From NCBI GenBank assembly GCA_017469355.1, contig JAFUGM010000021.1, positions 1 to 37,334 on the forward strand: 37,334 bases of DNA, read 5' to 3'. Of the stretch, positions 20,301-37,334 are shown one piece after another. This DNA comes from Solobacterium sp. (GTDB taxonomy: Bacteria > Bacillota_I > Bacilli_A > Erysipelotrichales > Erysipelotrichaceae). The notes beneath the pieces were generated by a model that searched no databases, had not been told where the DNA came from, and was given only the letters and a program-made list of their open reading frames with translations. Numbering within the stretch: position 1 is the first letter of the stretch; every line of letters starts with the position of its first letter. Made by a program: the position numbers and the translations under genes.

Positions 20301-21191
20301 CTACTCTTCAATCATTCCAAGCACTTCAAGAATCCGGTTCAGATCCGCTGTGTCGGAAAAATGAATGGTCAGATTCTTCCCGCTGATCGCTACCTTTGTG
20401 CTGAGCTTTGAAGACATGCGGTTTTCAAGATCGCGAATCAGAGGGTCTTTTTCCTTTTCCACCGGTGCCTTTCGTACCGGACGGTTTCCGCCAGTCAGCT
20501 CTTTTACATAGCGCTCTACTTCCCGTACGGACATCCGCTCTTTCTTAATCTTTTCCGCCGCCTCAATCATTTCTTCTTCATCATTCAATCCAAGAAGCGG
20601 ACGTACATGACCCATGGTCAGCTGTTTTTCCGTCACCAGTTCCTGAATCGGCAGCGGCAGTTTCAGCAGCCGCAACATGTTGGCACAGTATTCCCGTGAT
20701 TTTCCAACCCGCTCTGCCAGTTTTTCCTGGGTATAGCCAAGTCGTTTGATCAATGACTCATAGGCCGCAGCTTCTTCAATCGGATTCAGGTTTTCACGCT
20801 GAACGTTTTCAAGAAGGGAGATTTCCATCATCTCTTCATCCGTGAATTCCACTGAGATTGCCGGGACCGTTGAAAGACCCGCAAGCTTTGCGGCACGTAA
20901 CCGGCGCTCTCCCGCAATCAGTTCATATCCCTGCACACTGGGACGTACCAAAAGCGGGGTAAAGATGCCATGAAGACGAATGGAATCCGCCAGTTCATTC
21001 AATGCCTTTTCATCAAATTCCTTACGGGGCTGGTAGGGATTCGCACGGATTTCCGATACAGGAATTTCGACTTCCTTTCGGCCTGGCGCATCCCCGCCGT
21101 TATTCTGAATGTCTTCCAGGAACTGTTCCACATCGGACCCGAAGATGGAATTGAGCCCCCGGCCAAGACCGGTTTTCTTCTTCTCTGCCAT
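20301..21191 (-). CDS. parB: Chromosome partition protein ParB (Spo0J)
   Basis: CTP-dependent clamp that loads at parS and recruits SMC to the origin region. Length 296 aa. The N-terminal CTPase domain has the GERRLRAA and ENVQRENLNP boxes. The helix-turn-helix is TQEKLAERVGKSREYCANML, followed by a C-terminal dimerisation region. Among residues known to separate ParB from Noc specificity, this protein keeps the ParB-type Arg (GKSR) and Gly (TMGHVR). The N-terminal LGRGLNSIF resembles the ParA-activating peptide found in ParB proteins. The ribosome site AGAGGT overlaps the parA stop. A perfect parS lies at 35409-35424. Confidence 0.97.
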   Translation of the reverse strand: MAEKKKTGLGRGLNSIFGSDVEQFLEDIQNNGGDAPGRKEVEIPVSEIRANPYQPRKEFDEKALNELADSIRLHGIFTPLLVRPSVQGYELIAGERRLRAAKLAGLSTVPAISVEFTDEEMMEISLLENVQRENLNPIEEAAAYESLIKRLGYTQEKLAERVGKSREYCANMLRLLKLPLPIQELVTEKQLTMGHVRPLLGLNDEEEMIEAAEKIKKERMSVREVERYVKELTGGNRPVRKAPVEKEKDPLIRDLENRMSSKLSTKVAISGKNLTIHFSDTADLNRILEVLGMIEE

Positions 21192-21194
21192 GAC

Positions 21195-21980
21195 TTACCT
21201 CTTTTCGTTCTGGGCGATCACTTCCTTGACCAGACCCACATATGCTTTCGCGCCTTCGGAACGGGTGTCGTATTCAAAGATACTTTCTCCCCGGCTGGGC
21301 GCTTCGGAAAGACGTACATTCCGCGGAATATAGCAGCGGTATACCTTTTCCTTGAAATACTTCCGCACTTCCTGCTGTACTTCTACGGAAAGCTTGGTTC
21401 GAACATCGAACATCGTAAGAAGTACGCCTTCAATCGAGAGTGCCGGATTCCACAGCTTCTGAACCAGACGAATGGTTGACAGCAGCTGCGTCAGACCTTC
21501 CAGCGCAAAGTATTCGCACTGTACCGGAATCATGACGGAATCCGCTGCGGTAAGCGCATTGGTGTTCAGAAGACCAAGGCTTGGCGGGCAGTCGATGATG
21601 ATGTAATCATACTGATTCCGCACCGCATCCAATTTCTGTTTCAGAAGATGTTCTCTTCCAACTTCATAGAGATTCGAAGCCATTTCGACATCTGCGCCGG
21701 AAAGATCAATCGTTGCCGGAAGCACATCCAGCGGCGGCATATCCAGGGTTACCCGATCCTGTTCTACCGTGTCAGAACCCATCAGTACCTGATAGACACT
21801 GTGGTTATGATCAAACCCGGCAGCGCCTGCGCCGATGCCGTTGGTTGCGTTTCCCTGCGGGTCAAAGTCCACCAGCAGAACACGCTTGTCCGCATAGGCT
21901 AGTCCCGCTGAAAGATTAATAGAAGTGGTGGTCTTTCCAACTCCGCCTTTCTGATTGGCTACCGCAATAATTTTCCCCAT
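21195..21980 (-). CDS. parA: Chromosome partition ATPase ParA (Soj)
   Basis: Deviant-Walker ATPase that dimerises on ATP, binds DNA non-specifically and moves origins together with ParB. Length 261 aa, the short chromosomal type without an N-terminal DNA-binding extension. The P-loop is KGGVGKTTTS (from residue 11) with the signature Lys, followed by LLVDFDPQGNATNGIG and IIIDCPPSLGLLNTNAL. GGAG lies eight bases before the ATG. It sits between noc and parB, in the order rsmG-noc-parA-parB known from Bacillus. Confidence 0.97.
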   Translation of the reverse strand: MGKIIAVANQKGGVGKTTTSINLSAGLAYADKRVLLVDFDPQGNATNGIGAGAAGFDHNHSVYQVLMGSDTVEQDRVTLDMPPLDVLPATIDLSGADVEMASNLYEVGREHLLKQKLDAVRNQYDYIIIDCPPSLGLLNTNALTAADSVMIPVQCEYFALEGLTQLLSTIRLVQKLWNPALSIEGVLLTMFDVRTKLSVEVQQEVRKYFKEKVYRCYIPRNVRLSEAPSRGESIFEYDTRSEGAKAYVGLVKEVIAQNEKR

Positions 21981-21996
21981 AGTCTACACTCCGAAT

Positions 21997-22797
21997 CTAT
22001 CTTGGAAACCGGACGATCACCCGGACATCGGTCATCGATTCTTCCGTCTCCGCAATTACATCAATTCCCATCTTTTTAATCATGCGTACACACCGGTAGA
22101 CGGAATTGATTCCTACCTGTGTGCTTCTTGTGAACCCTTTGGTCTTCTGTTTCCGCTTTGGTTTACTGCGGTCAGAGATCTGTTCAATATAGGCCTCGGT
22201 CTGACGCACATTCAGATTCCGATCTGCCACATAGTGATACGCCGCAACCTGCTTTTCCTGTGGCAATGACAGGAGTGCCCTGGCATGACGCTCTGAGATC
22301 TGCCGGTCCGCCACCGCATCCTGAACTTCCTGTGGGAGATTCAGAAGACGTATCTTATTGGCAACTGCCGACTGCGACTTTCCGACAATCTCCGCCACTT
22401 CTTCCTGGGTGAGGTTTGCCTGCCGCATGATCATCACATAACCTTTGGCTTCTTCCACCGCCGTCAGATTCTCCCGTTGAATATTCTCGACAATCGCCAT
22501 TTCTGCAGCTTCGTTTTCACCAGGAGAAAGTATATAGCAGGGAACCGATTCAAACCCGGCCTTCTGACAAGCCCGCCAACGCCGCTCACCAGCGATAATC
22601 TCATAGTGATCTTCGATTTCCCTTACGGTAATCGGCTGAATCAGGCCGTTAGCTTTAATGGATTCCGTCAGCTCGTTCATCGCCGTTTCATCAAAATGAA
22701 TGCGCGGCTGATACCGGCTGGCTTTTATTTTATCGATCGGGATCCGGATGACTTCTCCAGTATGGTCCCGCTCAAAGATATCAAAGAGGAATGCCAT
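21997..22797 (-). CDS. noc: Nucleoid occlusion protein Noc
   Basis: ParB paralogue that binds chromosomal Noc boxes and, with CTP, attaches to the membrane to block septum formation over the nucleoid. Length 266 aa. It has GERRWRAC and ENIQRENLTAVEEA boxes and the HTH TQEEVAEIVGKSQSAVANKI. Residues that set Noc specificity are present: Gln (GKSQ), Lys (VANK) and Arg (SERHAR). The first residues MAFLFDIFERD could form the short amphipathic membrane-targeting helix seen in Noc. RBS GGAG overlaps the rsmG 3' end. Assignment to Noc rather than a second ParB rests on these residues and on gene order. Confidence 0.93.
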   Translation of the reverse strand: MAFLFDIFERDHTGEVIRIPIDKIKASRYQPRIHFDETAMNELTESIKANGLIQPITVREIEDHYEIIAGERRWRACQKAGFESVPCYILSPGENEAAEMAIVENIQRENLTAVEEAKGYVMIMRQANLTQEEVAEIVGKSQSAVANKIRLLNLPQEVQDAVADRQISERHARALLSLPQEKQVAAYHYVADRNLNVRQTEAYIEQISDRSKPKRKQKTKGFTRSTQVGINSVYRCVRMIKKMGIDVIAETEESMTDVRVIVRFPR

Positions 22798-34482: not shown

Positions 34483-34489
34483 AATAATC

Positions 34490-34573
34490 AAACAAAAATG
34501 GTACACGCAGACAGAGGTTTGTATGGCTGCTTCCTTCCGGACCTGACCAGGTTGTATACATGGCTGCTGTACC
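34490..34573 (-). ncRNA. ffs: Signal recognition particle RNA, small bacterial type
   Basis: Read on the minus strand the RNA contains the near-invariant SRP apical region GGTCAGGTCCGGAAGGAAGC with the GGAA tetraloop and the internal loops that bind Ffh. The 5' end GGTAC-A-GCAG pairs with the 3' end CTGC-GT-GTACC (to 34500), closing a single long hairpin. A T run (ATTTTTGTTTG, 34499-34489) follows as a terminator. The body is about 74 bases, short even for this class. A TATAAT box precedes it at a suitable distance. Confidence 0.93.
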
Positions 34574-34579
34574 GCAGTT

Positions 34580-34585
34580 ATTATA
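34580..34585 (-). promoter_or_regulatory. ffs: -10 element of the ffs promoter
   Basis: Perfect TATAAT on the minus strand, six bases before the inferred 5' G of the SRP RNA at 34573. The -35 at a 17-base spacing reads TTTTGT, which is weak. Confidence 0.6.
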
Positions 34586-34633: not shown

Positions 34634-35425
34634 TTAAATTCTGTGAATCAGCCAACTGTCAAGAATCCCATACATTTCCCGTATCACACATGCGCCAACA
34701 CTCCACCATGGCGTACTTGAAGTCACTGCACGTGCGGTTAAGCCATTTCGTTTTGCATATAGACAGGAGCGATACGCATGAAAGTTGCTGGTAACGATCA
34801 CGACATGGGTTGATAACCCTTCTGCGTGAATCAGTGTTGCAGAATAACGAAGGTTTTCCGCGGTCGATGTCGATTCATCTTCCAGATAGATTCGTGATTC
34901 ATCAATTCCCGCATCCATCAGCGCCTGTTTCATAGATTCTGCTTCGGTAATCGGAATATCGCCACCGATTCCGCCACCGCTCACGATAATCGGAGCCTCC
35001 AAATGCGATTTGAGGTAGTCCACTGCCGCATCTACCCGTCCCTGCATCAGAATGGATGGCTTACCATCGGAATCAACGCCTGTCCCAAGAATAATAACCA
35101 CCGCATCCTCTGAAACATCATTGGCAGGGATTCCAAATGTCATTACGCCCAATGTAATCACTGCGCAGCCCGCAAGTAACCCGCAACAACCTCTAAGAAC
35201 GCTCGTTGCTTTTGAATGTGCTGCTTTCCACGCATCCCATTGGGACGCATGACTCCATTTCAACGCCAATGTAATAGAAACCAGCAGTCCGGTCCAGCTT
35301 CCGATATTGTCATAATGAAGTCCGATTTCGCAGAGAAAATACACTCCGGCAATGATCGTGGCCATAGTGAAGAATTCATACCGTTTTTCTCTGTTCTGTG
35401 TTCTCATTTGTTTCACGTGAAACAT
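34634..35425 (-). CDS. YdcF/DUF218 family membrane protein
   Basis: Membrane protein of 263 aa. About three hydrophobic helices occupy residues 20-105 (FFTMATIIAGVYFLCEIGL, GSWTGLLVSITLALKW, GLLAGCAVITLGVMTFG). The rest is a DUF218 domain: VVIILGTGVDSDG, GRVDAAVDYLKSHLEAPIIV, SGGG, ITEAESMKQALMDAGI, and STSTAENLRYSATLI. SanA/YdcF/ElyC-like relatives are linked to envelope integrity, but the activity is unknown. The start ATG 35425 makes the first residues MFHVKQ, which are encoded by a parS site. A later ATG at 35407 is possible. The ATG is ten bases from the 3' end of the group II intron, so the natural leader and ribosome site lie in the upstream exon, outside the window. Confidence 0.85.
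   Translation of the reverse strand: MFHVKQMRTQNREKRYEFFTMATIIAGVYFLCEIGLHYDNIGSWTGLLVSITLALKWSHASQWDAWKAAHSKATSVLRGCCGLLAGCAVITLGVMTFGIPANDVSEDAVVIILGTGVDSDGKPSILMQGRVDAAVDYLKSHLEAPIIVSGGGIGGDIPITEAESMKQALMDAGIDESRIYLEDESTSTAENLRYSATLIHAEGLSTHVVIVTSNFHAYRSCLYAKRNGLTARAVTSSTPWWSVGACVIREMYGILDSWLIHRI
35409..35424. promoter_or_regulatory. parS: parS, centromere-like ParB-binding site
   Basis: TGTTTCACGTGAAACA is a perfect 16-bp palindrome identical to the B. subtilis parS consensus. It is the only such site in the window. It encodes residues 1-6 of the YdcF-like protein and lies about 14 kb from parA and parB, in keeping with an origin-proximal location. Confidence 0.95.
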
Positions 35426-35506
35426 TCATTGTTTGTCGAGTAGGCATTCTCGACACTCCTTTCAAACAAAATAAACTTGTGAAAGGCTTGCCTGACACCC
35501 CTCACA

Positions 35507-35539
35507 GAACCGTACGTGCGATTCTCCCGCATACGGCTC
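35507..35539 (-). ncRNA. Group II intron domain V
   Basis: Minus-strand sequence begins GAGCCGTATGCGGG and ends CGCACGTACGGTTC, a 33-base hairpin with the catalytic triad region and closing pairs typical of domain V. It starts two bases after the RT stop codon. Confidence 0.85.
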
Positions 35540-35540
35540 T

Positions 35541-36821
35541 TCAAACAACCATTGGATTCCAACCCCAAATATTGACATTGAGGCGAGGTGGCTTCATGTA
35601 GAAGTCCCAGATTCGAAGAAAGCTGTCCAGTTTCATCTTGCCTTTCTGATCTCTGCGATTGAACATTCGGTAGGTAGTGAACTTCACATACCACGTGAAT
35701 TTCCTGATTGACTCAAAGTTTCCAGAAATTCCATAGTAGTTGTAATGCCCTTCAACCTTCCTGTGCAGCGTCATCATAGTTTCCGCAATCGGTTTTGTCA
35801 GCCGCTGTCTCAACCACGCTTTTACCGCCTGTCTCTTCGCTTTCATCTTCTTGGCACTGCTTTTGATTCCTACTCGGTATTTGCCTGTTCTGGTCATGGT
35901 ATTGAAGAACGTAAATCCTAAGAAGTCAAACGACTCCTTCGTTCCCTTATACCTGCCGAACGGCAGTATCCTCGTTTTGTCTTCGGCTACCTCAAGCCCG
36001 AATTTTGCCAATCGCTTAGGAAGTACTTCCATAACAGCTTTGGCGTCACTCTCCCTTTCGAACAGTATCAGGAAGTCATCTGCGTATCTTACATAATGCG
36101 CTTCTCCGGTCAGGTTCCCTTTAACGTACTTCTCGAACCAGAGATCGAGCACATAGTGCAGATATACATTTGCGAGTACTGGAGAGATCAAGCCTCCCTG
36201 TGGGGTTCCTTTGTCTGCTTCCAATAACTCTGTGCCTTCCATGATTCCTGCCTTCAGGAATCTGGTGATGTACCGCAGAAAGTTCTTATCCGATATGTCA
36301 TTCTCAAGAAACTTCATCATCCACTCGTGGTCGACATTGTCAAAGAATCCTTTGATGTCTGCCTCAAGTACATAATTCACCTTCTTCGTCATGACAGTCT
36401 GATTGATGAATCTGACCACATCATGCGCATTCCGTCCCTCTCGAAATCCATAGGAACAGTCCAGAAATCTCGGCTCATACACCGCGCTCAGTATGTCTGC
36501 CATTACAGATTGGACTAATTTGTCCTCATAAGCAGGTATACCTAACGGTCTCATCTTGCCATTTGCTTTGGGAATATACGTCCTTCTGACTGGCTGTGGG
36601 TGATACGAGAACGTCTTCATCTTCTTTACCAGATTCTGAATACTCTGTTCCACGTTTTCCTCATACACGTCTTTCGTGACTCCGTCCACTCCCGCTGCTT
36701 TCTTTCGTAACTGTTTCCGATGTGCTTCCATGAGTGTTACTTCATTCACATTGCGCATCAGATTCTGTACTTTCTCGTACATCTTAGACTGGTTTCGTAT
36801 TTCTTCCGTTTTCGTTGACAT
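35541..36821 (-). CDS. ltrA: Group II intron-encoded reverse transcriptase/maturase
   Basis: Protein of 426 aa that helps the intron RNA splice and copies it into new sites. RT motifs are in order: RRTYIPKANGKMRPLGIPAY, DCSYGFREGRNAHD, EADIKGFFDNVDHEW, KGTPQGGLISPVLANVYLH, and YVRYADDFLILFE with the YADD catalytic site. The thumb/maturase X domain follows (GFTFF, then RQRLTKPIAETMMTLHRKV). The protein ends without an HNH endonuclease domain, so mobility would use nicked or replicating DNA, as in other endonuclease-less RTs. An AGGAGGT site (36837-36843) lies 15 bases upstream, a little far. No frameshift or lost motif is visible. The subclass was not determined. Confidence 0.97.
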   Translation of the reverse strand: MSTKTEEIRNQSKMYEKVQNLMRNVNEVTLMEAHRKQLRKKAAGVDGVTKDVYEENVEQSIQNLVKKMKTFSYHPQPVRRTYIPKANGKMRPLGIPAYEDKLVQSVMADILSAVYEPRFLDCSYGFREGRNAHDVVRFINQTVMTKKVNYVLEADIKGFFDNVDHEWMMKFLENDISDKNFLRYITRFLKAGIMEGTELLEADKGTPQGGLISPVLANVYLHYVLDLWFEKYVKGNLTGEAHYVRYADDFLILFERESDAKAVMEVLPKRLAKFGLEVAEDKTRILPFGRYKGTKESFDFLGFTFFNTMTRTGKYRVGIKSSAKKMKAKRQAVKAWLRQRLTKPIAETMMTLHRKVEGHYNYYGISGNFESIRKFTWYVKFTTYRMFNRRDQKGKMKLDSFLRIWDFYMKPPRLNVNIWGWNPMVV

Positions 36822-37330
36822 TCGTTTTCTTTTCTGACCTCCTGTGCCTTGAATGTTTCCACTTCAGAAACGATTGTTTGTCCGACCCTTCCCTCCGCAT
36901 GGTCTCTCCATGTTTCCTCGGTACTATGGTCGAATCCGACTTCTGTAGCCCCTTAACGATCTCTCCAATTACAAGTCTTCAATCACGCTTAGCCTTAACT
37001 TCCGGCAGAACTACAGACCTCCCAGGTACCCCAGTAATACCTTGCACACTTACCGTTCCCTAAGACCCCGGTGGAATCTCTCCATACTCGCTTATCGCAT
37101 GGTTCTTACTGCCTGCTGTTTAGAAGCAAACATCGGCTTCCACTCTGTATAGATTACGAGGCGGATCGGACTCGTCCCTCTTACGAGGCACTGCGGTCCG
37201 TGTGCTTCTCTGTCTACGCTTAAACCTCACCTCACGGCTCTGGCTCCAAGACTGAGTACCGGCTGTCCGCTACGACTTTACCGGACAGGGAGTTTCACCC
37301 TGTTATATTACTGACGCCGAACTGGCGCAC
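36822..37330 (-). other. Group II intron RNA, domains I-III and start of IV
   Basis: This 509-base stretch contains no protein gene. It starts with the intron 5' end and should fold as domains I to III, holding the exon-binding sequences. With only four bases of 5' exon in the window I could not match EBS1 or EBS2 to target DNA. Confidence 0.75.
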
Positions 37331-37334
37331 CTTC

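Follow-up and report, generated by a model that had tools for sequence, protein, structure and literature searches.

On its sequence, the 16-bp palindrome at 35409-35424 of the window (the whole 37,334-nt stretch of DNA analysed here, which is the complete contig C17) is a real, conserved ParB-type site, and the gene adjoining it did not decide where it lies. We estimate a probability of roughly 0.85 for the whole account, in which this site would belong to a parS pair positioned by serS, the other member of the pair would double as a hairpin of the serS T-box riboswitch, and a group II intron would have entered the ydcF leader next to its promoter.

The parS pair and its position beside serS

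The window contains a single perfect parS, namely TGTTTCACGTGAAACA without a mismatch at 35409-35424; the chance expectation for matches with up to three mismatches in the window is 0.23. Across the 2.69 Mb and 92 contigs of the genome, two perfect copies are present, at 35409-35424 and at C79:43040, and no one-mismatch copies were detected. Two parS-like sites with two mismatches were also observed on another contig (G000:C46:5273 and C46:21655). In keeping with a ParABS system, the 16-bp palindrome occurs in a genome that has parA and parB near the origin, its position beside serS is kept in relatives, and dnaA lies on the same contig as serS (compared in this genome alone). Genes for ParB, ParA, and a Noc-like paralogue share the window with parS, at 20301-22797.

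35409-35424, no strand assigned: perfect 16-bp parS, the pair member downstream of serS; position kept across the genus
20301-21191, minus strand: ParB/Spo0J-type protein (PF02195, TIGR00180)
21195-21980, minus strand: ParA/Soj-type ATPase
21997-22797, minus strand: Noc-like ParB paralogue (TIGR04285, 300.7 bits, just under the cut-off of 315)
34484-34583, minus strand: small SRP RNA gene (RF00169), the next conserved landmark past parS in relatives

In this genome, serS is located on contig C79 together with dnaA, dnaN, gyrB, and gyrA, and the end of this contig falls within the same group II intron as that of the window. Intron-free relatives have serS adjoining ydcF, with one parS on each side of serS. 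The order C79-intron-C17, which was deduced from gene order in these relatives across a join spanned by no read, is likely for two reasons: joining the C79 and C17 flanks minus the intron gives a parS-parS distance of 1457 bp, which fits the 1397-1466 bp of ydcF-bearing relatives, and the intron-free relative G001 retains AAGAAG/AAAC at the insertion point.

At least one perfect parS, and mostly exactly two, was found in 63 of 70 genus members, many of these genomes being incomplete and the related species not independent. Two parS sites flank serS in the genus loci that we read, mostly 1372-1466 bp apart (~1.4 kb). For 59 genus and family loci in which a parS lies downstream of serS, this site begins 0-80 nt past the serS stop codon in 56, and either ydcF or the SRP RNA comes next; in many genomes, the SRP RNA directly follows the downstream parS with no ydcF in between. 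This indicates that parS is tied to serS. As far as the compared loci tell, the ydcF start merely overlaps a parS that is anchored to serS, and ydcF did not set its position.

Some genomes have other layouts. A third parS is present ~2 kb further on in G027 (L104) and the second parS of G002 (L112) lies 854 nt after serS, which suggests insertions in the interval. In G009 (L095), the parS behind serS is placed within a longer hairpin, CATCCCAAT-parS-ATTGGGATG, that is possibly part of the serS terminator.

The two sites flanking serS next to dnaA-gyrA would thus be the ParB loading sites of the chromosome, a role suggested by their sequence and conservation and by the presence of parAB. Their positions would be set by serS, with the upstream site in stem III of the T-box and the downstream site just behind the serS stop codon or terminator.

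The upstream parS and the serS T-box

Rfam alignment puts the upstream parS in the helix immediately before the antiterminator, i.e., stem III, which together with the antiterminator forms the discriminator domain of T-boxes (PMC10482949). By this alignment, stem III of the serS T-box has the upstream parS at its apex; with the 16-bp palindrome as the apical half of this stem, the same bases would therefore be both a DNA site and an RNA hairpin. A T-box motif and stem III are present ahead of an aminoacyl-tRNA synthetase gene, as in T-box leaders. The T-box of this genome scores 92.3 bits against an RF00230 gathering score of 93, and the serS leaders of relatives score 96.5-108.5. In all 37 genus loci where both elements stand side by side, the T-box motif follows parS by 9-14 nt.

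The stems show the covariation of a structured RNA around a core that hardly changes. When right flanks were swapped among 67 stems, the mean MFE was -7.5 kcal/mol, compared to -11.5 kcal/mol for the true stems (z = -17.6). Pair counts were made on 35 stems chosen for gapless alignment, whereas the swap test took all 67; 70 cells changed on both sides compared to 28.7 after shuffling, with compensatory changes in seven of seven flanking pairs and invariance of four of the six pairs inside parS. The inner 16 bp of stem III, matching parS, are thus nearly invariant and the flanking pairs covary. Some relatives carry TGTTCCACGTGGAACA, in which both sides have changed and the palindrome is kept. 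Flank pairing is much weaker at the downstream parS, which served as a control (z = -2.8 versus -9.2).

It is extremely improbable that the upstream palindrome is a mere T-box hairpin that resembles parS by chance. Such a hairpin would account for flanks that covary as RNA, but not for inner 16 bp that hardly vary and are an exact parS, although RNA alone would tolerate changes there as it does in the flanks. Moreover, the same 16 bp recur behind serS without T-box context, and a genome usually has only two perfect parS, of which the upstream site is one. Nor is overlap with parS demanded by the T-box, since stem III is not parS in the serS T-boxes of the relatives G284, G235, and G139.

We also surveyed how widely the double use of the palindrome extends. 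The combined parS and T-box pattern is present in 54 of 70 genus genomes; a one-mismatch parS occupies the same place in four genus genomes that lack the combined pattern. At the order level, a wider pattern was matched in 73 of 316 genomes and 7 of 80 genera, with no matches for the reversed-pattern control. A phylum sample gave 16 of 392, in families f1, f7, f22, and f27, to which the order-level search added f2, such that the arrangement is known from five families. SerS is encoded next in 15 of 15 loci tested from these pattern searches. The strict T-box pattern misses genera with ACCACG and AACACG variants, and further genera carry the arrangement with the T-box variant GGGTGGCAACACG.

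A chromosome centromere site would in this way be written into a regulatory RNA, its bases fixed as a DNA site atop a covarying RNA stem. No published mention of parS doubling as a T-box hairpin was found in the open-licence literature on parS with T-box or serS. The location of parS within the serS riboswitch makes possible a direct test of ParB loading against transcription of an essential gene. A speculative and rather improbable extension is that the centromere and serine sensing interact via the shared palindrome, with ParB on the leader hindering serS transcription, or serS transcription clearing or limiting the loading of ParB and SMC at the origin.

The ydcF start codon and the group II intron

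The following features lie at the end of the window where parS meets ydcF and the intron.

34634-35425, minus strand: gene for a DUF218/YdcF-like membrane protein; the ATG that overlaps parS is at 35425, with a second in-frame ATG at 35407
35425-35434, minus strand: ten bases between the intron 3' end and parS, AAACAATGAA
35435-37330, minus strand: full-length group II intron, 1896 nt (RF02005 and RF00029), one of four copies inferred for this genome
35541-36821, minus strand: intron-encoded reverse transcriptase/maturase (PF00078; TIGR04416, 381 bits, cut-off 300)
37331-37334, minus strand: last four 5' exon bases, GAAG; the remainder is at the end of C79 (L043), with the join taken from the gene order of relatives

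The original prediction held that a perfect parS overlaps the ATG of a YdcF-like gene, which we confirmed at 35409-35424 with 0 mismatches. On the minus strand, ATG TTT CAC GTG AAA CAA (35425-35408) begins a 263-aa ORF that matches PF02698 with 97.5 bits (cut-off 27.6), as is typical of YdcF/DUF218 proteins; a search of named genomes for related loci yielded only two distant YdcF proteins. Of 14 ydcF loci, 11 have the parS-overlapping NTG in frame with ydcF, compared to a one-third chance (P = 0.0007; 9 of 12 non-duplicate loci, P = 0.004), where the P values are to be read with the shared ancestry of the ydcF genes, which makes the loci non-independent. This NTG is out of frame in the other three (G010-C132, G032, and G018), and translation must therefore begin downstream there. 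Conversely, a start inside parS is likely in seven loci (G010-C182, G022, G028, G030, G013, G008, and G071) because no in-frame ATG occurs within ~65 nt behind parS. In G008 and G071, the ydcF ATG overlaps the serS stop codon. Shine-Dalgarno support is strong in G010-C182 alone. In this genome, the 35425 start has a weak match after splicing and the 35407 start has none, and position 35425 is the better guess for the predicted ydcF start.

These comparisons divide what had been claimed for the site. Its proposed role as a ParB nucleation site that also codes for residues 1-6 was borne out insofar as the site is a conserved ParB-type site; it is not a ydcF feature, being present both with and without ydcF. 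The suggested comparison of the MFHVKQ start with relatives gave the parS NTG in frame at most loci and out of frame at some; a downstream start is required in the three out-of-frame loci, and a start in parS is the likely one in the seven loci without a nearby in-frame ATG. Coding by parS is optional. Where ydcF follows serS, its short leader and initiation codon would overlap parS, and in most, though not all, of these species translation likely starts at the NTG. The idea that parS evolved to encode the ydcF N-terminus was rejected, given the lack of a shared frame in 3 of 14 loci and the presence of parS without ydcF.

The intron runs from GTGCGCC at 37330 to 35435 and has the 5' GUGCG, catalytic D5/D6, and intron-encoded reverse transcriptase/maturase of group II introns; no endonuclease domain was detected in the encoded protein (35541-36821). 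The Rfam end at 35435 and three other 3' ends in the genome agree, which makes the 3' exon AAACAATGA-ATG and upholds the predicted intron end 10 bases from parS. Also as predicted, the insertion left parS intact, with all 16 bp free of mismatches, and the ydcF leader and promoter appear to lie beyond the intron: a -10-like TATAAT is found just past the intron 5' end on C79, 12 nt before the 5' splice site and 22 bp before parS once the flanks are joined. The intron would hence have inserted within the ydcF leader, past the -10 box but short of parS, leaving both parS sites intact. It separates the putative promoter from ydcF, so the native leader would be restorable only by splicing; if unspliced, just nine native leader bases precede the ydcF ATG.

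We compared the insertion sites of this intron subfamily with those of a sister subfamily.

Subfamily 5' ends surveyed: L037-L040, L158-L163, L171-L182, and the window, 35435-37330
Sister-subfamily sites: L164, L165, L166, L167, L169, L175, L177, L179

At all 17 distinct genus sites of the subfamily (excluding one distant element, L168), a TA...T hexamer like TATAAT precedes the insertion by 9-12 nt, compared to a frequency of 0.039 at random positions; none of eight sister-subfamily sites has it at that distance. The sister subfamily (GTGCGCCAGTTCGG, with a different continuation) lies directly after an ATG with a Shine-Dalgarno-like stretch before it at all eight sites. From its sites, the subfamily looks like one that inserts just after promoters, and an intron placed beside a -10 box could be transcribed from host promoters. 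A -35 element was not enriched at the insertion sites of the subfamily, so the intron or its protein could recognise the TATAAT-like motif as a target without the motif being a promoter. The insertion targets given for bacterial group II introns are homing sites, terminators, and attC only (PMC4424553), and a preference for sites after a TATAAT-like hexamer is not among these three.

Two further explanations concern the neighbours of the downstream site. The parS at the ydcF start could be a ydcF control element, with loaded ParB blocking transcription or initiation and MFHVKQ a conserved N-terminus. This is in line with the excess of in-frame loci, several of which have no ATG close behind parS, with the 22 bp between the -10-like box and parS, and with P. 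aeruginosa, where ParB acting from parS represses PA0011 and PA0013 (PMC7022226). However, parS keeps its position in genomes without ydcF, three loci are out of frame, and the frame counts come from ydcF genes of shared ancestry; TATAAT directly abuts parS in G003 and G030, so transcription may begin inside parS. ParB effects near parS are direct at parS3/parS4 of P. aeruginosa and small in B. subtilis, where genes near parS respond little to Spo0J, and in S. pneumoniae (PMC7022226). We consider ydcF control unlikely and favour a parS pair positioned by serS. Even less probable, and very unlikely in our judgement, is that the intron came to lie 10 bp from parS by chance or was drawn by it: just one intron copy adjoins a parS, but at the three remaining 5' junctions of this genome parS is absent and a -10-like box is always present at 11-12 nt. 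Attraction by parS was rejected on account of these other copies, and the near miss is likely better explained by the insertion preference of the intron than by avoidance of parS.

Comparison with known systems

The partition locus resembles the Spo0J-parS type of B. subtilis: an identical 16-bp palindrome lies close to dnaA and gyrBA, and the region also contains parA, parB, and a noc-like gene. It differs in that only two perfect sites are present, both tied to serS, one in the riboswitch leader and the other just behind the gene. The leader has the stem I, pseudoknot region, stem III, and antiterminator of the serS T-box (RF00230) in the known order ahead of serS; in contrast to the usual T-box, stem III is capped by a nearly invariant parS and not by a hairpin free to vary. 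At parS3 and parS4 of P. aeruginosa, upstream of PA0011 and PA0013, parS likewise stands before a gene, the expression of which is lowered by ParB (PMC7022226), whereas the site described here overlaps an initiation codon and any repression would be by analogy. Finally, the intron shares its GUGCG start, D5/D6, and a reverse transcriptase without a detected endonuclease domain with bacterial group II introns, including class C. Unlike class C introns, which insert after terminators, it does not lie directly after a terminator hairpin, the serS terminator being well upstream on C79, and the sites of its subfamily follow a -10-like hexamer.
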